A DNA stretch of 64,000 nt from Cephaloticoccus sp. (lineage in GTDB: Bacteria; Verrucomicrobiota; Verrucomicrobiia; Opitutales; Opitutaceae), in assembly GCA_030833445.1 (NCBI GenBank), contig JAURHD010000001.1, positions 202,552 to 266,551 of the forward strand, in the 5' to 3' direction. The notes beneath the pieces were generated by a model. The model had not been told where the DNA came from. It saw nothing but the letters and a program-made list of their open reading frames with translations, and did not search any database. Made by a program: the position numbers and the translations under genes. The first letter of the stretch is position 1. Each line of letters opens with the position of its first letter. Below are positions 53,404 through 63,689 of this stretch, piece after piece.

Positions 53404-53931
53404 ATGCCGGTCAGACCCGCCACCCTTGCTGATGCCCAAGCGATTGCAGAAGTGCATGTCGCCTCTTGGCAAACGAGTTATCGTGGCATTGTGCCTCAGC
53501 ATATTCTGGACGGCCTCTCGTTCGAAAACCGGTTGAAACAATGGACCGGGGGCTTTGGTAATCCGCTCCGCGGTTTGCCCATTTTGGTGGCCGTGGACGG
53601 GCACCGGGTGGTGGGCTTTGCCGATGGCGGGCCGTCGAGGGATGCGGACGCAAAGCCCAAAACGATGGAGTTATATGCAATCTATCTCTTGCAGGAGTTT
53701 CAGCGCAAAGGTTTGGGGCGCGAGTTGTGGACGAGCATGGTTGCCTCGATTCAAAATACCGGGGCGACTGCCGTCACGGTTTGGGTGCTGGTGGCAAATA
53801 CCCCGGCGCAAAATTTTTATAAGGCCTTGGGCTTCCGACCCGATGGTGAGGTCAAAACCATTGATGTAGGAGAGGTAAATCTGAGGGAAATGCGTTACCG
53901 GTTGCCTTTGATGCAATCCGCGCAGGCTTAG
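53404..53931 (+). CDS. GNAT family N-acetyltransferase
   Basis: MPVRPATLADAQAIAEVHVASWQTSYRGIVPQHILDGLS; ELYAIYLLQEFQRKGLGRELW. Confidence 0.95.
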   Translation: MPVRPATLADAQAIAEVHVASWQTSYRGIVPQHILDGLSFENRLKQWTGGFGNPLRGLPILVAVDGHRVVGFADGGPSRDADAKPKTMELYAIYLLQEFQRKGLGRELWTSMVASIQNTGATAVTVWVLVANTPAQNFYKALGFRPDGEVKTIDVGEVNLREMRYRLPLMQSAQA

Positions 53932-54779
53932 CTGAACTTGGCGATGCGCGCGGCCACGTCGTCGCGCAGCCGATTGATCCGGGCTAGGGCAAACTCGGCG
54001 ACCGTAAGTCGGTCGTCCTGCACCAACGGCGTCAAATCGATGGCCCACGCAACTTCAGTAAACTGGTCGGTGGCGTGCGAGGTGTGAAAGGTGGCGTTGG
54101 CTTGGCGGCGGCCGAGGGCGGCGATATCGTAGCGTTTGCCGCCGGCAATCTGCGAGGCGAAGACCTGCATGATCGGCAGCTTGAGCTCCGGGTGCGCGCT
54201 GCAATCGAGGGCGATCTTTTCGTCATCCATCAACCAGTCGAGCCCACGCCACGCTTCGATGCCGAGGACTTTGATGGGACGTTGTTCAACCGGCAGGGTG
54301 CGGATGGCGTCAAGGCAGCGCAGGAGCACGGCGACGTGGGTGTCGTGTTTGTCGAGTGGCTGGTGCAGATACACGACCTGTGGTTTGCAGGCGGAGAATA
54401 TCGCGGTGAGATCAGCCTGCACCCCGGCGTGACCGGGCTGCTTCACGTCGCTGCTGGGATAACCGAGTTGAATCTGCAGGTTGTATTTTCCCAGCCGAGC
54501 GGCCTCGCGCTGTTCCTCGGCGCGCACGACCTGCATCTGTTCATCGGTATGATTGGCAAACGGACCGGTGCGGGATGAGCCGGAGCCATTGGTTACAGTG
54601 ACGCCGGTTAAAAAACGATCCGATCGGCTGTAGCAATCCGCCACGGCGGGATAGGCATTGATCTCAATGTCGTCCTGATGCGCGATGACGCACAGGTGGG
54701 TCGTGCGGGCGAGGGCAACGGCGGGATCACTGCCATCAGGCACATAGACATCGGACTTGGGGTGGGCGAATTGCATCAA
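53928..54779 (-). CDS. PIG-L (LmbE-like) deacetylase family protein
   Basis: LCVIAHQDDIEINAYPAVADCY (AHxDD), LHQPLDKHDTHVAV. Confidence 0.9.
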   Translation of the reverse strand: MMQFAHPKSDVYVPDGSDPAVALARTTHLCVIAHQDDIEINAYPAVADCYSRSDRFLTGVTVTNGSGSSRTGPFANHTDEQMQVVRAEEQREAARLGKYNLQIQLGYPSSDVKQPGHAGVQADLTAIFSACKPQVVYLHQPLDKHDTHVAVLLRCLDAIRTLPVEQRPIKVLGIEAWRGLDWLMDDEKIALDCSAHPELKLPIMQVFASQIAGGKRYDIAALGRRQANATFHTSHATDQFTEVAWAIDLTPLVQDDRLTVAEFALARINRLRDDVAARIAKFS

Positions 54780-55885
54780 GGTGACACGAAGGGTTCGAGG
54801 ATGCGGCTCATCGCATCAGTGTTGGCCTCAATGCTGCGCACCAACGCGAATTGGGTGCGAGTGCGGACGAGGTTGTGCTCCGGGTATTTGATTTTGTAGT
54901 AGGTGTCGCCTTCGAGATAATCGGTGAGAAAGCGCAGCCCGTTCTCATAACTCATGAGCTTACCGGCGAAACCGAGGTGGGCACGTTCGGTGGCGTTGAG
55001 CACATCGCCCACGGCAGAAGAGAGGTAACCTTCAACGAGGACCTTAAAAAGTGGGAGCTCGACGTGCATGTTGCCGGCCTCGGCGTCGTCCTCGAAGGTC
55101 GAGCTCGCGGAGGTGCGCATCATTTCGCCGAAATCATACAGCGGCAGCCCCGGCATCACGGTGTCGAGATCGATCACGGCCACGGAGCGCTTGGTCGTAT
55201 TGTCCAGCATGACATTGTTGATCTTGGTGTCGTTGTGCGTGACGCGCTCAGACACCTCGCCCTTGGCCAGGAGCGTGAGCAGCACGTCGGCATCGGCTTC
55301 GCGGGAAAACGCGAACTCAATGTCGGCCTGCACGCTGGCGGCACGACCGGCTTTGTTATCAGCCACGGCGCGGCGAAAATTTTCGAAGCGGCTGCGCGTG
55401 TGGTGAAAGTTGGGAATGGTCTCTTGCAACCGATCGCCGGGGAGGTCGGCCAGTTGGGCTTGAAAGTTACCGAAGGCACAAGCGGCCTCGCGGGCCTCGG
55501 CCTCGTTGGTCACACGGTCCACGGTGTGGGCGCCTTCGATGAAATCATACAAGCGCCACCAACGGCCTTCGCCGTCGATGGCGGCGGGCGCGCCGTCAGT
55601 CGCCGGGATCAAAGTCAACTCGCGGGATTGTGCGCCGGCCTTTTGGTTCAAGTGCGCGGTAACGCGGCGCACATTGTCCATCAGGGCGGTGACGTTCCGG
55701 AACACATTCGTGTTGATGCGCTGGGCGACGTAGCGTTTGGCCTGTCCGTTGGTCCCGAGATAATTGACGACATAGGTGTCGTTGATGTGACCGCTGCCGT
55801 ATGGCTCGGCGGAAACATAATTCCCAGGGAGGGAAAACAATTCCAAGGTGGCGGTAAAATTGGCGGGAACGGGCGTGCTGCTCAT
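54776..55885 (-). CDS. Phosphotransferase (APH/choline kinase-like; NahK-type N-acetylhexosamine kinase-like)
   Basis: YGSGHINDTYVV, RVTHNDTKINNVMLDNTTKRSVAVIDLDTVMPGLPLYDFGEMMR. Confidence 0.88.
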   Translation of the reverse strand: MSSTPVPANFTATLELFSLPGNYVSAEPYGSGHINDTYVVNYLGTNGQAKRYVAQRINTNVFRNVTALMDNVRRVTAHLNQKAGAQSRELTLIPATDGAPAAIDGEGRWWRLYDFIEGAHTVDRVTNEAEAREAACAFGNFQAQLADLPGDRLQETIPNFHHTRSRFENFRRAVADNKAGRAASVQADIEFAFSREADADVLLTLLAKGEVSERVTHNDTKINNVMLDNTTKRSVAVIDLDTVMPGLPLYDFGEMMRTSASSTFEDDAEAGNMHVELPLFKVLVEGYLSSAVGDVLNATERAHLGFAGKLMSYENGLRFLTDYLEGDTYYKIKYPEHNLVRTRTQFALVRSIEANTDAMSRILEPFVSP

Positions 55886-58431
55886 GAATTCAGGGCAAAT
55901 TTAAATCGGTGGCTCTGGCCGGCGGCGAGTGTTTTGGTGCGCGGCGGGACGGTTTGTCCGGATTTGCCCACGTTAATCCTTCTGAGGGCCAGCCAACCAT
56001 GCAACACGGTCAGCACTACCTCGGTGTTTCGGCGAGTGGGTTTGATTTCCAGCGTCCCCCAAGCTCCGCCCGTCGACCAAGGCCAGCGCACTTTTTTGTT
56101 AGCCGAGTTCAGGGTCAGGGTGCCGGTGAGGGCCGAGTAATGAAATCCAGTGCAGGCGGGGATGAGTCCCCAGCTGGCCATCGCTCTGGCGTAATGATGG
56201 CCGCACTCGGCCTCGTCGAACGGGTTGCGTTTGTGCCCGTCGTAGCGTTCGCGGATGTCGCGCACAACCTTGCGGGCATCGCGGGTGCGACCGATCTGCA
56301 ACAGATGAATGGCGAGGTAGTATTCAAAGCCGGTCATCACCTCGGTGTAGTAGGGGAAGGGCCGGGCCGGGCGTTGGCCCCGCGGATAAGACGCCATCAA
56401 CACGGCGGTTTCATTTCCCAGCACATAGCTGCGCATGTGGTTGAAGTGGCCGCTGAAATCGCTCCGACGGTTGTGTTTCAACACCGCGCGCAGGGCGGCG
56501 GATTCATGCTTGGGCTCAAGTAGCGTGCCGAGATGCTCGAAGTGTGCGTTTACCTGACCCGCGAGCTGGTCGATGAGACAACCGGCGCCGAGTTGAAAAT
56601 CGGGGTTGGTCACATCCTTGGCACCGGCGCCGACCGCGAGACCCGTGCGCACCTCGTCCCAGCTTTTCCCGGGCCGGATGTGATGCTCGTAATAGTCTCC
56701 ATTGAACAGGTTCGCGTCCACCCACGTCCGTCCGCGTTCGTAGAGCCCGCGACATTTTTCTGCAAAAACGGTTTCGCCCAACGCGCGGCCCATTTCCTCG
56801 CAGGCGCGCAAAGCGGCGAGATACCATGAGGCCATCTGCGGATTCGGCCCGAAATATTCCACGTCCATCGTGTTGTGTTGGCAGCCTTCCATTACCCCGT
56901 CCTGATCGGCATCCCAGCCGCCGGGCAACCAGGCAAATTCCAAGGCGCGTTTCGCGTGCGGCCAAAGGCTGCGCAGCCACGTCGCGTCACCGCTCAAACG
57001 CCATTCGCGATGCAGTTTGACGAGACAGCCCATCTGGCCATCCGCCGCCGCGAAGGGTTGGCTGGTGCCCGGGGCCAATGGCAGCGCGACACGAAACGAC
57101 ATCAGGCCGTCCGCATCCATCGCGTATTCGGAAAATTCTGTTTCGCGCATCGAGCGGGCAAGGTCCGGAAACAGATTGGCGGTGGCGTGTTCGTAATTCC
57201 ACACGTGGGTGCAGTTGCCGTGGCAGCTGCCCTGTCGACTGAAGCAACCCTCCCAACCAAAGAACCGGCCGTCGGCGGTGCGGAAGCAGGTTTGTGAGCG
57301 CAGCGTGGAGAGATTGAAGAGCGCAGCCTCGCGCACCTCGCCGGGCAGATCGCTCCCTGCAACCGACTGCACAAATGCGACCGTATCCTTTTCGAGTTTC
57401 GCCCAGTTTTTGGCGGCGTGATCCGCTGCCGCCCATGCATCGGCAAACCGGGTGGTGTAATAGTTGCCGACGATGGCCGGTTCCTTGTCGGGCTGGCGAC
57501 CCCACGAAAGCCGGTTGGGAAAATGCCAGGCGATGACGAACTCCACCGTGCGGTCGCTTAGCGGGGGCACTTCGATCGAGACCGCCAGCGAAGCGGTCGG
57601 CGAATCGCTAACGGCTTCGCGCGGATCGATTTTACCATCCGCGGAAAAGTCATCCCAGAAATCGAGCAGCGCATCACTCCAACCGTAATCGCTCCAAGCG
57701 GTGCGATGTGTCACCCCACGCTTGGCGGTGGTGGCAAGCGCGAGCGTGCCCCAAGTATCGGTGGATTTGTCCACCCCGTTCGAGGTCATATGCAGACCGC
57801 GGGCATGCCGGGATTGTTGATAAACATTGTGTCCGGCTTTCGAACCCACGGGCTCCAGTCGGCCACGGAACTCCTCCAGTTTTACCGCGAAACCATCGGT
57901 GCCAATGAAGTTGGGCAGAGCGGCGGCAACCGAGGCCGACACCGGCTTGCGTGAGGGATTGCGCAGACGCACACGCACCATGGCCACGGGCAAGCCGCTG
58001 CGATCACTGTCGCCGGGGATCAGGGGATTGAACGTTTCCATCGCGACCTGCAGGGGCACGTCGGCATCGGTGAGTTCGAGTCGGGCGAGCGGGTAGGCGG
58101 CGTTGAAAGTCGCATTGCGAAAACGCGGCAAGCCGGCGTTCGGCATGGGCGCACCCTCGTCGCCTTCCCATTCGCCGATGGGCAAGGGACCCTCCAGCAA
58201 ACGCGTGACCGGAGCCGCGCCTTTTTTGGCGGCATACAAGGCGAAGAACGGCGTGGCCCGGCCCTGACCGACGGGGGTGAATCCTTTGGCAGGACGGTTG
58301 GCGACTTCCCAGTGACGCCAGGCCCCGAAGCCGCAGAAAGAAACCGTGCCGGTGCCGATGCCGCCGATGGGCAGGGCGATTTTGGCGAGGTGTTCGCCGC
58401 TGTAATGCTTCAGGGAAGGCCAAGGGTGCAT
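55882..58431 (-). CDS. GH116-family (GBA2-like) glycosidase
   Basis: IALPIGGIGTGTVSFCGFGAWRHWEVANRP, CHGNCTHVWNYEHATANLFPDLARSMRETEF, WDADQDGVMEGCQHNTMDVEYFGPNPQMASWYLAALRA. Confidence 0.9.
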   Translation of the reverse strand: MHPWPSLKHYSGEHLAKIALPIGGIGTGTVSFCGFGAWRHWEVANRPAKGFTPVGQGRATPFFALYAAKKGAAPVTRLLEGPLPIGEWEGDEGAPMPNAGLPRFRNATFNAAYPLARLELTDADVPLQVAMETFNPLIPGDSDRSGLPVAMVRVRLRNPSRKPVSASVAAALPNFIGTDGFAVKLEEFRGRLEPVGSKAGHNVYQQSRHARGLHMTSNGVDKSTDTWGTLALATTAKRGVTHRTAWSDYGWSDALLDFWDDFSADGKIDPREAVSDSPTASLAVSIEVPPLSDRTVEFVIAWHFPNRLSWGRQPDKEPAIVGNYYTTRFADAWAAADHAAKNWAKLEKDTVAFVQSVAGSDLPGEVREAALFNLSTLRSQTCFRTADGRFFGWEGCFSRQGSCHGNCTHVWNYEHATANLFPDLARSMRETEFSEYAMDADGLMSFRVALPLAPGTSQPFAAADGQMGCLVKLHREWRLSGDATWLRSLWPHAKRALEFAWLPGGWDADQDGVMEGCQHNTMDVEYFGPNPQMASWYLAALRACEEMGRALGETVFAEKCRGLYERGRTWVDANLFNGDYYEHHIRPGKSWDEVRTGLAVGAGAKDVTNPDFQLGAGCLIDQLAGQVNAHFEHLGTLLEPKHESAALRAVLKHNRRSDFSGHFNHMRSYVLGNETAVLMASYPRGQRPARPFPYYTEVMTGFEYYLAIHLLQIGRTRDARKVVRDIRERYDGHKRNPFDEAECGHHYARAMASWGLIPACTGFHYSALTGTLTLNSANKKVRWPWSTGGAWGTLEIKPTRRNTEVVLTVLHGWLALRRINVGKSGQTVPPRTKTLAAGQSHRFKFALNS

Positions 58432-58481
58432 GGGGTAATCCTCAGGTGCGTTGTGCCGGAGCCCGTCCGGCATGATGCTCG

Positions 58482-59411
58482 TTAGGCAAAGAGTTTTTCG
58501 GGGTAGGCGCCGGCGGCGACCAAGTCTGCGATGGCTGCGACGACGCGCGCCTTGTCCTCGCGGTAGGTCACACCGAACCACGTGCTGGTGGTGGGCAACA
58601 CCTGCACCTCCGCTTCATGACGTTCAATCATGGTTGAGACTGCGGCGGGCAGATAGAATTCACTTTTAGGCTCAGTGCCACGAGTGGATAGAAATTCGCG
58701 CAATTGGCGGTCCAGCCCATCGAATAACGCCGGGGTGAATCCCCAGCAATTCAGCGAGGCGATTTCCGTGCCGGAGTAAGTCAGGCCGGGGCCGATCTCG
58801 GCTGGCAGGATGTTGGTTTGCTCAACGATGGTTTGCAACCGGCCGCCGGCATCGGCGGTGCAGATGCCGCGGGAGACCGCGCCGTTTTCCGAAAGGGTGT
58901 TGCGCAATTCAAACCCCACCATGGCGAACTGGGCGGCAAGGGACTTGGGAGGCTGGTGTCCCGACATCGGGTCAAAGCCGCGCGCCGCATCGCGATCGGC
59001 CTGCAAAAATTTGCCCAACCGACTGAAGGAATCGGCCCCGTAAAAATCGTCCGCGTTGATCACGGCAAACGGTTCGTGGACGACCTCACGGGCGCACCAC
59101 ACGGCGTGGCCGGTGCCCCAGGGTTTCTCGCGACCGATCGGCGCGGCATGGCCTTCGGGCAATGCGTCGAGCGCTTGAAATACATAATCCACGGTAATGA
59201 GTCCGGCATATTTGTTGCCCACTTGTTCGCGGAAAACCGCCTCGAAATCGCGGCGGATAATGAACACCACGCGGCCGAAACCGGCGCGAATCGCGTCGTA
59301 GACCCCGTAGTCCAACACGGTTTCGCCGCCAGGACCGACCGGGTCGATTTGCTTCAGACCGCCGTATCGCGAGCCCATGCCGGCCGCGAGCACAAGAAGA
59401 GTGGGTTGCAT
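58482..59411 (-). CDS. Sugar nucleotidyltransferase (NTP_transferase family)
   Basis: MQPTLLVLAAGMGSRYGGLKQIDPVGPGGETVLDYGVYDAIRAGFGRVVFIIRRD. Confidence 0.92.
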   Translation of the reverse strand: MQPTLLVLAAGMGSRYGGLKQIDPVGPGGETVLDYGVYDAIRAGFGRVVFIIRRDFEAVFREQVGNKYAGLITVDYVFQALDALPEGHAAPIGREKPWGTGHAVWCAREVVHEPFAVINADDFYGADSFSRLGKFLQADRDAARGFDPMSGHQPPKSLAAQFAMVGFELRNTLSENGAVSRGICTADAGGRLQTIVEQTNILPAEIGPGLTYSGTEIASLNCWGFTPALFDGLDRQLREFLSTRGTEPKSEFYLPAAVSTMIERHEAEVQVLPTTSTWFGVTYREDKARVVAAIADLVAAGAYPEKLFA

Positions 59412-59520: not shown

Positions 59521-60060
59521 TTGTCCGTAGACCCCATCCCCTCTGATCAATCGCGTTGGCTGACGGAAGAAGTGCTGCCCCATGAAGCGGCGTTGAAAGC
59601 CTATTTACGCAGCCACTTTCCCGATTTGCGGGATGTGGATGACGTGGTGCAGGACAGCTACATGAAACTGCTGGAGGCTCGCCGGCAGCACGAAATCGTC
59701 TCACCGCGGGCCTATTTGTTTACCACCGCCCGCAATGCCGCGCTGTCCATTCTCCGGCGGCCCCGAATTTTTTCTGACCAGCCGGTAACAGATTTGATCG
59801 ACCCGGGCGTCATAGAAACAAGCCCCGATGTCACCCAAATTCTCAATCAAAGACAGGAGATTGCCATGCTGATGGATGCGATCGACGCACTCCCGCAGCG
59901 GTGTCGGGAGATCTTCATCCTCCGCAAGTTACAAGGGGTGCCCCAGAAGGAAATCGCCCTGCGACTGGACCTTTCAGTGATGACAGTGCAGGTGCAGGTC
60001 ACCCGTGGGGCGGCCAAATGTGCGGAATATTTCCGGAAACGCGGGGTAACTCGCAGCTAA
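59521..60060 (+). CDS. ECF-type RNA polymerase sigma factor (probable TTG start)
   Basis: LRSHFPDLRDVDDVVQDSYMKLLEAR (region 2), ALPQRCREIFILRKLQGVPQKEIALRLDLSVMTVQVQVTRGAAKC (region 4). Confidence 0.92.
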   Translation: MSVDPIPSDQSRWLTEEVLPHEAALKAYLRSHFPDLRDVDDVVQDSYMKLLEARRQHEIVSPRAYLFTTARNAALSILRRPRIFSDQPVTDLIDPGVIETSPDVTQILNQRQEIAMLMDAIDALPQRCREIFILRKLQGVPQKEIALRLDLSVMTVQVQVTRGAAKCAEYFRKRGVTRS

Positions 60061-61137
60061 ATGGCCATGAAGACGAATCTACCAACCCCCTCCACCTTGG
60101 TGGACCAGGCCGCCCACTGGCTGGCCCGGATTGATGCTGGTCTCGATGCCGGCGGGCAGAAAGAATTTCAACAATGGCTGGGGTCCTCACCGGATCACCA
60201 GGCAGCTTGGGAAGATGTCTCCGCACCTTGGGAGGGTTTGGATCAAGCCCGGGCCGATGGGTATGCCCCGGAAATGCTGGCAGAGCTGGCCCGTCGGGAG
60301 CAGAAGCGGAAGTGGTCCCGTCGGCGGAATTGGATCGGTCTGGCGGCTGCGGCCGCAGTGGCCGTCAGCATAACCGCAGGGCTGGATCACCGATCGACAC
60401 CGGCTGCACCGGTTCCCACCTATGCCCCCGTTGCCGCGGATGAGACAGCGTCTGCAGCCGAATCCCGGATCAAATTGGTGACGATCCCCAGTGCAGTGGT
60501 CTTGCGACCGGAACAGCGCCGTTTGGATGACGGATCCGTGGTCGAGTTGAATGAGCGCGCCCTTTTAAGCGTCAATTACACGCCGGAGCGTCGCGAGGTC
60601 CGGCTGATCAGCGGCACGGCCCATTTCACGGTGGCGCATAACCCGGACCGGCCGTTCATCGTGCAGGCCGGAGCCGTGGCGGTGCGCACCGTGGGCACCG
60701 CGTTTGCCGTGGAGCCCTCTGATACGGCTGCCGATGTGCTGGTCACCGAGGGCCGGGTTGGCGTGGCCCGCACGGTGGACGAGACCAGCACGGACGAACC
60801 TCTGCTGGTGCCGGCCGGGGGCCGGGTGCTGATGTCCTACCAACCCGGGGAAACGCCCACGGTGGAAATGCTCAATCCCGAAGAGATGGCGCGACGCCTC
60901 CAATGGCGGGCCCCGCGGCTGCAATTGCACGGAGCGACCTTGCCCGAGGTCGTGGCACTTTTGAATCAACTTAACGACACGCAGATGATGATCGCGGACC
61001 CCAGTCTGGAGCCATTGCGTTTCAGTGGGGTGTTCCGCGCCGACAACGCCGCCGGATTTGTGCGGATGCTCGAGAACGATCATGGCGTGGCCATCACTTA
61101 TAATGGGGAAAATACGATTGTCCTGCGCCGCAGATAA
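60061..61137 (+). CDS. FecR-type anti-sigma/transducer protein
   Basis: QEFQQWLGSSPDHQAAWEDV, RRLDDGSVVELNERALLSVNYTPERREVRLISGTAHFTVAHNPDRPFIVQAGAVAVRTVGTAFAVE; starts directly after sigma stop. Confidence 0.93.
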   Translation: MAMKTNLPTPSTLVDQAAHWLARIDAGLDAGGQKEFQQWLGSSPDHQAAWEDVSAPWEGLDQARADGYAPEMLAELARREQKRKWSRRRNWIGLAAAAAVAVSITAGLDHRSTPAAPVPTYAPVAADETASAAESRIKLVTIPSAVVLRPEQRRLDDGSVVELNERALLSVNYTPERREVRLISGTAHFTVAHNPDRPFIVQAGAVAVRTVGTAFAVEPSDTAADVLVTEGRVGVARTVDETSTDEPLLVPAGGRVLMSYQPGETPTVEMLNPEEMARRLQWRAPRLQLHGATLPEVVALLNQLNDTQMMIADPSLEPLRFSGVFRADNAAGFVRMLENDHGVAITYNGENTIVLRRR

Positions 61138-61174
61138 CCACGGGAAGCAGTGCGCGGCAGGGCAGTTTCGTTGG

Positions 61175-63091
61175 ATGCGACTGCTGGCTGGTGCAGTGCT
61201 GTTATGGGGGCTTGCCCTGCCGTTGGACTTAGCGGCGATCACCCGTAATTTCAGCATTAAGGCCGGACCGGCCGAGACGCAGTTAAACGAATTTGCGGTC
61301 CAGAGCGGGCTGCAGGTGCTTTTTGAGACGGAGCTGGCGCAAAACCGCCGGGTCAATGCAGTGCGCGGCGACTACACCATGGGTGAAGCCCTGGATCGTT
61401 TGCTGGGGGACACGGGACTGGCGGCGCAATATGATGAGAAGTCTGGCATCGTAACGATTGCCCGTGCGGAGTCCAAGAAACCGGTGGTGCGGTTGCCGCC
61501 CTATACGGTCGAAGGCGAACCGATTTCATGGCGCTATGCCCGGGCGGGAAACATCGAGGTGCTGTCCTCCTGCACCGACGATGTGACCAATCGGGTGATC
61601 CAGCAAATCCACCGTCTGCACGAAGCCTTGGAGCAGATCGTGCCCCCCGAGTTCATTTTTCAATCGGATCAACCGATCGTCTACGTGCTCCATTCCGATC
61701 GGGATCACGCATCCCTTCCACCCGAACTGATGGAGAAATTGCGGCAACAGGAGAAAAAGGAATCCGCCGCAAACACGCTGATTTGGAATATTGGCATCAT
61801 GCGGAGTTACATTTTCTGGGATGTGGATAGTCGGGCGATCTATTTCATCTTGAATGAGGGTGCCTTCATGGTGGGCCGACTGAGCATCCGCGGTGATTAT
61901 TTGCACCAGATGATGGAGCGTCGCAGTCCTTCACTGCCGGCGTGGTATATCCAAGGCATGGTGGAACTCTACAGCACGATCACCCTCGATCCCTATGGAG
62001 CCCGGGCCTTTGCCATGGAAATTAAAAACCGGCACCGAATCCCCGGTGGCGTGGCAAAATTCAAACCCTTTGTCTGGCTTTCCGAAGAGGAAACCCAGTC
62101 TATGCGCAAGGGGCACGAACCAGGTTTGGTGCCGTTGGCCGACCTGATTACCGGATCCGCCCCCACCGCGGCGGATCTGTCCCGCCGAAACTGGCGGGCC
62201 CAAGGAGCCTTGTTCGTGCGCTGGGCCTTGGATGACGTTAAAAACGGTCGGGAGGCCCTGTGGGATCTCCTGCGCCGGTCGGATGACCACGCGTTGACTG
62301 AGACAGATTTCAAAGAGTGCTTCGGGCTGAGTTTTGCTGAAGCGGATGAAAAATTGCGCCGTTACCTGCCAAAGGCAGTCAAACGGGAGTTTGAGTTGAA
62401 ACCGGACAAGTTCGATGAGCTGCCGGCCTATGTGCTGCGTTCCGCCACCGATCTGGACACCGCCTGGACCAAGGGGGATCTCGACCGATTGAAGATCAAT
62501 TACGTGCGCCGATATTTTCCCGAACTGACCGATCGCTACATCGAACAGGCGCGCCGTATTTTGAAGCAAGGTTATGGCATGGGCGGAGATCACGATGCCC
62601 GCCTGCTGGGGTTGCTGGGACTTTGCGAGTGCGACGTGGGCGATGATGTCGCCGCCCAACCGCTATTGGAGGCCGCCGTGAATGGTGGGGCCGAGCGTCC
62701 ACGGGTCTATTACGAGCTGGCCCGCATTCGATTTGAGGCGGCCATGCAAGCGACCAAAGGAGGTCATATCACTGAGGCAGAGGCGGATTCGGTGCTGCGG
62801 CTCCTGGTCATGGCCTGCGCCCATCATCCACCCCTCCCGTCGGTCTACGAATTGATGGCGGAAACCTGCGCGGCGGTCGGAGTAAACCGACAGGAACTGA
62901 TCCTCTTGCGTGAAGGGTTGAAACAATTTCCGCGTCGCACCGGCCTGATCAAGTCCGTGGTCCGGGTGCATGCCCAATTGGGTTTGCGCGCCGAAGCGCA
63001 AGCGGTGCTACAGCGGGGAATTGCGATGGCGGAAGATCCCGCGGCCCGCCAAGAACTGACCAAGTTGCAACTGGAACTGGCCGGACAATAA
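61175..63091 (+). CDS. STN-domain protein fused to a peptidase-MA/DUF1570-like region and TPR-like C-terminus
   Basis: Start at MRLLAGAVLLWGLALPLDLA; STN: RNFSIKAGPAETQLNEFAVQSGLQVLFETELAQNRRVNAVRGDYTMGEALDRLLGDTGL; then SLPAWYIQGMVELYS region and helical repeats; no plug/barrel. Confidence 0.75.
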   Translation: MRLLAGAVLLWGLALPLDLAAITRNFSIKAGPAETQLNEFAVQSGLQVLFETELAQNRRVNAVRGDYTMGEALDRLLGDTGLAAQYDEKSGIVTIARAESKKPVVRLPPYTVEGEPISWRYARAGNIEVLSSCTDDVTNRVIQQIHRLHEALEQIVPPEFIFQSDQPIVYVLHSDRDHASLPPELMEKLRQQEKKESAANTLIWNIGIMRSYIFWDVDSRAIYFILNEGAFMVGRLSIRGDYLHQMMERRSPSLPAWYIQGMVELYSTITLDPYGARAFAMEIKNRHRIPGGVAKFKPFVWLSEEETQSMRKGHEPGLVPLADLITGSAPTAADLSRRNWRAQGALFVRWALDDVKNGREALWDLLRRSDDHALTETDFKECFGLSFAEADEKLRRYLPKAVKREFELKPDKFDELPAYVLRSATDLDTAWTKGDLDRLKINYVRRYFPELTDRYIEQARRILKQGYGMGGDHDARLLGLLGLCECDVGDDVAAQPLLEAAVNGGAERPRVYYELARIRFEAAMQATKGGHITEAEADSVLRLLVMACAHHPPLPSVYELMAETCAAVGVNRQELILLREGLKQFPRRTGLIKSVVRVHAQLGLRAEAQAVLQRGIAMAEDPAARQELTKLQLELAGQ

Positions 63092-63182: not shown

Positions 63183-63689
63183 TTAACCTTGGCTGGCGAG
63201 CTTGAGGTCAAACACCTTTCCCTTGAAGAAAAAGACATAGAGCGTATCGGCCGGCAGGTCGGCAGGTTCCGGGGCCATGGTCGGTCCGCTGTTTTCCACA
63301 AAACCGCGACGGGATTGATCGGCTTGGGGTGCGTTCCGTCTCTCATAGGGAAGGGAACGGGAGGATACGTTGTCCATGCCACTGGCATAGGATACACTGA
63401 TTGAAATGGCGCGATTACTGGGGTAATAGCGGTTGTAGGTCCACAGGGTGACGGTTCCATCGGGACTATCCTTGACCTCAGACTTCGAAGCTTTGCCCAA
63501 GGCCATATACACCATGTCGGGCGTGAACCCGATATCGATATCACCGGCCTCGATGATCTGTTTCTGTTCCGGGGTAAGGCTGCTGAAGACCGCGGATTTT
63601 TCTTCGATTCGTCCTGAGGCGCCGGACATTTCACAACCAGCCAACAAGGCGACGGTAGCAATACATACCAGGGTGGTGATCGATTTCAT
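63183..63689 (-). CDS. Hypothetical lipoprotein, SmpA/OmlA (BamE)-like fold suspected
   Basis: MKSITTLVCIATVALLAGCEM lipobox; IDIGFTPDMVYMALGKASKSEVK resembles BamE-like motif. Confidence 0.65.
   Translation of the reverse strand: MKSITTLVCIATVALLAGCEMSGASGRIEEKSAVFSSLTPEQKQIIEAGDIDIGFTPDMVYMALGKASKSEVKDSPDGTVTLWTYNRYYPSNRAISISVSYASGMDNVSSRSLPYERRNAPQADQSRRGFVENSGPTMAPEPADLPADTLYVFFFKGKVFDLKLASQG

Follow-up and report, generated by a model that had tools for sequence, protein, structure and literature searches.

A sigma factor/FecR operon in Opitutaceae with an apparent receptor-less STN partner

The operon and its STN-bearing third protein

Cell-surface signalling is usually linked to nutrient transporters of the outer membrane. 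Here we describe an apparent variant encoded near the end of a 64,000-nucleotide stretch of Cephaloticoccus sp. DNA (family Opitutaceae; contig JAURHD010000001.1, positions 202,552 to 266,551), hereafter the window. A FecI-type extracytoplasmic function (ECF) sigma factor, a FecR-type anti-sigma factor and a secreted protein of 638 amino acids apparently form one operon (Table 1). The initial annotation, made from the letters alone, had placed the sigma and FecR genes in direct adjacency (60060/60061), and this is exact: the sigma stop codon abuts the FecR ATG at 60061, with zero bases between. It had also placed a 638-residue protein with a signal peptide and an STN domain 37 nt past FecR; the ATG of that frame lies at 61175, 37 nt after the end of FecR (61137), and the open reading frames, Pfam and a structural model bear out the rest. 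This third protein opens with a signal peptide and a complete STN domain; a short disordered linker then leads into a gluzincin-like domain, and tetratricopeptide repeat (TPR)-like repeats follow. We refer to residues about 100–635 as its body.

The STN domain was detected by Pfam at residues 46–90 (E value 6e-6), scoring 26.4 bits, slightly below the cut-off of 28.4, and reached 31.1 bits, above that cut-off, in a six-frame search. Residues 12–102 match the FecA N terminus in NCBIfam (E value 3.5e-10); at the sequence level, the STN stretch matches FemA, HasR, FecA, FpvA and PupB in the PDB. A secretin-type STN is ruled out, since both NCBIfam and PDB place the domain nearest to TonB-dependent transducers. 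The STN match on contig C66 of the same genome lies within a secretin-like protein. No plug or barrel family was found in the third protein by Pfam, and a PHROGs search returned nothing.

An AlphaFold2 model computed from a 19-row alignment (predicted local distance difference test (pLDDT) score 84.9, predicted template modelling (pTM) score 0.76) comprises an STN fold, then a linker modelled with low confidence (mature residues 79–94), an alpha/beta domain and a long series of paired helices. Its top Foldseek match is the PupB signalling domain in complex with the anti-sigma factor PupR (6ovm, template modelling (TM) score 0.89 on the target), with further matches to the FpvA and FecA signalling domains and to TPR proteins. 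An STN fold together with a peptidase-like fold had been set beforehand as the structural test; AlphaFold2 and Foldseek show both, and no beta-barrel. The claim that neither plug nor barrel follows the STN domain thus holds, and a hidden C-terminal barrel is ruled out, as the model is helical there. The helical repeats proposed for this part are supported by a weak Pfam TPR_19 match (0.0013), profile–PDB matches to TPR proteins, the model and Foldseek.

FecR matched the Pfam families FecR (5.8e-16), DUF4880 (8.9e-12) and FecR_C (0.0023). Eleven FecR proteins from such operons align and share a conserved C-terminal STN-like block, WR.PRL.L...L.E.V..LN..N..QL.IADP.LA.LRLSG.FRADNAEGFVR.LE, and their profile matches the periplasmic domain of PupR (6ovk_R) with an E value of 4.9e-15; the expected partner domain for the STN is therefore present. 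Two further FecR-domain proteins are encoded in the same genome, one of them adjoining an STN-bearing 1080-amino acid protein with a plug domain on contig C44. This is the canonical design, so both designs coexist in one genome. The genome also encodes M50 proteases.

The gluzincin-like domain and the TonB-box-like linker

Modelled by itself, the second domain (pLDDT 74.7) gave the collagenase T peptidase domain as its best Foldseek match (E value 9.6e-4, probability 1.00), followed by weak matches to M61 and M1 aminopeptidases, all of which we take to be gluzincins. An intact homologue is encoded in the same genome (locus L160; DUF1570 (PF07607) by Pfam, 40.3 bits). Its segment HEYLHQIAATRDLKLPLWLNEGLAEFYST aligns without gaps with GDYLHQMMERRSPSLPAWYIQGMVELYST of the third protein, pairing HEYLHQ...LPLWLNEGLAEFYST with GDYLHQ...LPAWYIQGMVELYST, and hhalign of the family profile against L160 (probability 97.7, E value 2.2e-12) likewise sets HEYLH over GDYLH. 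A second intact homologue (HEATH...LPVWLDEGTAEVYST; E value 5.8e-12) is encoded in genome G056 (L036 2272-4167), three genes upstream of an STN-body gene. In that genome (L036 2272-5862) the intact DUF1570-like peptidase is followed by two small secreted proteins and then the STN-body gene, and sigma and FecR genes are not nearby.

In the third protein, the first His, the catalytic Glu and the third-ligand Glu are replaced by G, D and Q, and the region of the third ligand reads IQG compared with NEG in the intact homologue. HExxH was found in 0 of 53 collected relatives, which rules out an active peptidase of this type. The PF07607 model matched neither the third protein nor the 19 members of alignment A1. 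Alignment and modelling together support a predicted DUF1570-like peptidase fold that is catalytically dead. The initial annotation had suggested both points, a gluzincin resemblance and a dead site with GDYLH in place of HExxH; Foldseek of the domain and hhalign to the intact homologue support the former, and the latter is right.

Between the STN and the gluzincin-like domain lies a segment that resembles a TonB box. All 53 collected bodies, with or without STN, have V.LPP[FYL].V or a near form of it, either right after the signal peptide or after the STN, that is, where a TonB box lies. A matrix was derived solely from 23 TonB-dependent receptors of four of these genomes, using their TonB-box regions. 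On it, the bodies scored a median of 14.5 bits, compared with 14.9 for the receptors themselves (leave-one-out) and a maximum of 10.9 among 350 other N-terminal segments. The 53-body count is partly circular, because a relaxed version of the motif was used to gather the bodies. Free of that circularity are the 16.1 bits that the third protein's own linker scored on the receptor matrix and the (near-)invariance of L, P, P and V in alignments A1 and A3, which were built by whole-protein similarity. Judged from sequence likeness, the linker motif may be a TonB box. A PDZ-like secreted protein adjoining a body gene (L049 6821-7294) has a similar N-terminal motif (MNPFTV).

Recurrence across Opitutaceae

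A search of loci with the single protein retrieved no relative; the 19-row alignment proved too heterogeneous for scanning, and a six-row subset worked. Queried with the whole protein, 190 of 252 genomes of the same GTDB family, Opitutaceae, give a match, some via the STN part alone, and the body frequently occurs in many copies per genome. In the rest of the class the body was matched weakly, chiefly via its TPR part. Matching records that bear names are Opitutaceae, Opitutae or Verrucomicrobia metagenome-assembled genomes. The body is thus an Opitutaceae-specific paralogous family, mostly without STN. Judged by eye from translations, the neighbours of STN-less bodies are apparent secreted S9-like peptidases, glycoside hydrolases and others.

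STN-fused copies number 17, in 15 genomes. FecR lies upstream on the same strand in 12 of these, covering five genera (by genus codes), and the sigma factor is also visible in 11 of the 12; in G008 the contig begins inside FecR. The order sigma–FecR–STN-body on one strand recurs in ten other Opitutaceae genomes, with small secreted proteins intervening in three, so the arrangement is not due to chance and a one-off fusion artefact is ruled out. Of 16 intact STN-fused genes, 11 have FecR on their own strand no more than 2.5 kb away (the twelfth FecR-bearing copy being the split one in G008), compared with 1 of 23 STN-less genes (Fisher P = 2.6e-5, uncorrected for kinship and therefore too optimistic, as the sequences are related). 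The copies at L050 (G008) and L038 (G001) are broken by a frameshift or stop, reflecting decay or assembly error.

A quick tree placed 14 of 16 fused copies in one region together with 7 STN-less copies, and the other two as a separate pair. Well supported branches force at least four changes, so that STN was gained or lost repeatedly. The initial observation of an STN protein without a barrel beside sigma/FecR is confirmed and its reading as a noncanonical partner supported, with two refinements: the body belongs to a family of many copies, most of them free of STN, and VreA is a precedent for an STN protein that lacks a barrel in this kind of system.

Models of signalling and the surrounding genes

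The closest precedent is PUMA3 (VreA–VreI–VreR) of Pseudomonas aeruginosa (PMC2729926), where an ECF sigma factor and a FecR-like anti-sigma factor are likewise encoded together with a secreted STN protein, VreA. Mostly soluble and lacking plug and barrel, VreA has a second domain that resembles TolA/TonB (PMC2729926). By contrast, the Opitutaceae protein (about 70 kDa) combines a putatively dead DUF1570-like domain with TPR, has no Pfam match to a TonB C-terminal domain and is encoded in another gene order. With FecIRA, FpvA, FoxA–FoxR and PupB–PupR it shares the sigma factor, a FecR with a PupR-like periplasmic domain and the STN fold of the partner. Unlike in those systems, the partner has neither plug nor beta-barrel and therefore cannot be a transporter. 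It resembles DUF1570 (PF07607)/peptidase MA-like gluzincins with TPR in its fold, in the LP.W..EG..E.Y motif and its spacing, and in the TPR that follows, but it has lost the catalytic and metal residues, is unrecognised by the Pfam model and has gained an N-terminal STN. When the TPR part is compared with PDB profiles, the periplasmic TPR adaptors LbcA (PA4667) and LpoP rank among the best matches, a generic TPR match; neither is known to carry an STN or peptidase-like domain. We found no description of the STN–pseudopeptidase–TPR architecture in the open-access literature searched, which is weak evidence of absence. Because related genera show this arrangement too, it looks like a real and apparently undescribed variant of cell-surface signalling, in which the transporter half is replaced by a pseudoenzyme and helical repeats kept beside sigma/FecR in five genera distant from Pseudomonas. 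It raises the questions of what an STN–FecR switch minimally needs and whether pseudopeptidases can serve as sensors.

In Pseudomonas, as long as no signal is present, the signalling domain of FoxA stays bound to the FoxR C-terminal domain and guards it against proteolysis (PMC11637429), and the PupB signalling domain binds and stabilises the corresponding domain of PupR (PMC7186176). A soluble STN encoded with FecR fits such a FoxA-like protective role. We favour, with moderate confidence, a receptor-less variant of FecIRA in which the third protein acts as a soluble periplasmic transducer, its STN guarding FecR and its body sensing; a noncanonical periplasmic sensor is also what we infer for its role. 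The STN would contact the STN-like domain at the C terminus of FecR, which sits in the inner membrane, and, much as FoxA does for FoxR, would shield FecR from proteolysis while sigma stays bound. The dead DUF1570-like domain and TPR would form the sensory part, binding a protein or peptide of the periplasm or outer membrane, possibly with the involvement of the TonB-box-like linker and of the lipoprotein encoded nearby. Engagement of the body would then alter or remove the STN–FecR contact, after which site-2 and other proteases would cut FecR and free sigma.

Several points weigh against the soluble transducer. Five of the 17 STN-fused genes have no visible sigma/FecR nearby, although for two of them the contig ends within 250 bases upstream, and no shared promoter motif was found upstream of sigma in the five operons compared. 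As STN was gained or lost several times, some fused copies may have other roles. Neither a ligand nor a regulon was found; the STN–FecR contact, the way in which the switch turns and the periplasmic location are predictions. The regulon of VreA does not require it when P. aeruginosa is starved of phosphate (PMC4971064), so an STN protein without a barrel is not necessarily an activating sensor. For the same reason, a role as a co-regulated product and feedback brake, albeit rather unlikely, is a serious rival: sigma/FecR would sense by other means, the STN would titrate or protect FecR, and the body would perform an envelope job common to its STN-less paralogues. That most bodies are STN-less and lie beside varied secreted enzymes suggests that the body has a job of its own, and in Pseudomonas signalling is inhibited when signalling domains are overproduced (PMC11637429). 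Such a brake is harder to reconcile with the coincidence of STN fusion and FecR adjacency across five genera, or with the finding that the sole STN receptor detected in the same genome has its own adjoining FecR.

The linker suggests further possibilities. A TonB-box-like segment in a barrel-less family is unexpected and readily testable, and we consider it unlikely that the dead DUF1570-like/TPR family consists of soluble TonB-coupled sensors that STN wires to sigma/FecR with no outer-membrane receptor of their own; if true, this would be TonB-linked signalling without a dedicated outer-membrane receptor. A narrower version, in which the linker recruits TonB and TonB force or occupancy is itself the signal passed via STN to FecR, strikes us as quite improbable. 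Its appeal is that the motif of all 53 bodies is as good as a receptor box region and sits in the box position. However, besides the partial circularity of that count, the motif could be a docking segment retained from an ancestor, STN-less bodies keep it as well and binding to TonB is a prediction. As for a peptidase domain that works through a non-standard site and itself cuts FecR, the peptidase fold speaks for it, but with G, D and Q at the His, Glu and Glu sites and HExxH absent from every collected relative we regard this as hardly credible.

Table 1. Coordinates of the operon, its parts and the adjoining genes within the window
Feature	Position	Strand	Basis
FecI-type ECF sigma factor, TTG start	59521..60060	+	Pfam Sigma70_r2 2.1e-11, r4_2 4e-15; upstream of FecR in other operons too
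FecR-type anti-sigma factor: DUF4880 cytoplasmic domain, one apparent transmembrane helix, FecR domain, C-terminal STN-like domain	60061..61137	+	
STN-like domain at the FecR C terminus, where the third protein is expected to dock	60907..61134	+	Conserved block; PupR match
STN–pseudopeptidase–TPR protein, 638 amino acids, secreted (predicted)	61175..63091	+	Open reading frame, Pfam, AlphaFold2 model
Signal peptide, residues 1–21, without lipobox	61175..61237	+	Sequence MRLLAGAVLLWGLALPLDLAA, judged by eye
STN (signalling) domain, residues 22–97	61238..61465	+	Pfam STN; PDB sequence matches; Foldseek 6ovm
TonB-box-like linker motif VVRLPPYTVEG, within a stretch modelled with low confidence and probably disordered	61484..61519	+	Matrix score, conserved columns
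Gluzincin-like (DUF1570/peptidase MA-like) domain, predicted catalytically dead	61520..62386	+	hhalign with intact DUF1570-like homologues; Foldseek of domain model
GDYLH at the place of HExxH (HEYLH in intact homologue L160)	61892..61906	+	Gapless alignment
Q260 at the place of the third zinc-ligand Glu (NEG in intact homologue)	61952..61954	+	LPAWYIQGMVELYST versus LPLWLNEGLAEFYST
TPR-like helical repeats	62450..63088	+	Pfam TPR_19, profile–PDB matches, model helices, Foldseek
Small lipoprotein, convergent to the operon	63183..63689	-	Lipobox ALLAGC
Divergent operon: PIG-L deacetylase, APH-type kinase, GH116, nucleotidyltransferase	53931-59411	-	

Upstream of the sigma gene, the divergent operon is a possible target of the sigma factor. 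All four of its genes are kept beside the system in UBA2377 (L067), and its GH116 and nucleotidyltransferase genes are also found at G003 (L034) and G006 (L035).

Homologues of the convergent lipoprotein adjoin STN-body genes in G006, G008, G274, G275, G210 and G208, in G210 and G208 separating FecR from the STN gene, in G275, G274 and G008 following the latter; they also adjoin STN-less bodies in G047 and in the Cephaloticoccus genome. No Pfam family was found for this protein, a BamE match in 1 of 11 members (E value 0.12) being at chance level. Its place is taken in G102 and G056 by a different pair of small secreted proteins. The STN-body protein of G149 (L128 2590-5820), of about 1077 amino acids, has a C-terminal extension weakly related to these two proteins (E value 7.5e-4). 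The lipoprotein family shares the motif G.I..GFT..MVYMALGKP, and three tandem copies are present in the Cephaloticoccus genome (L049 7339-9487).
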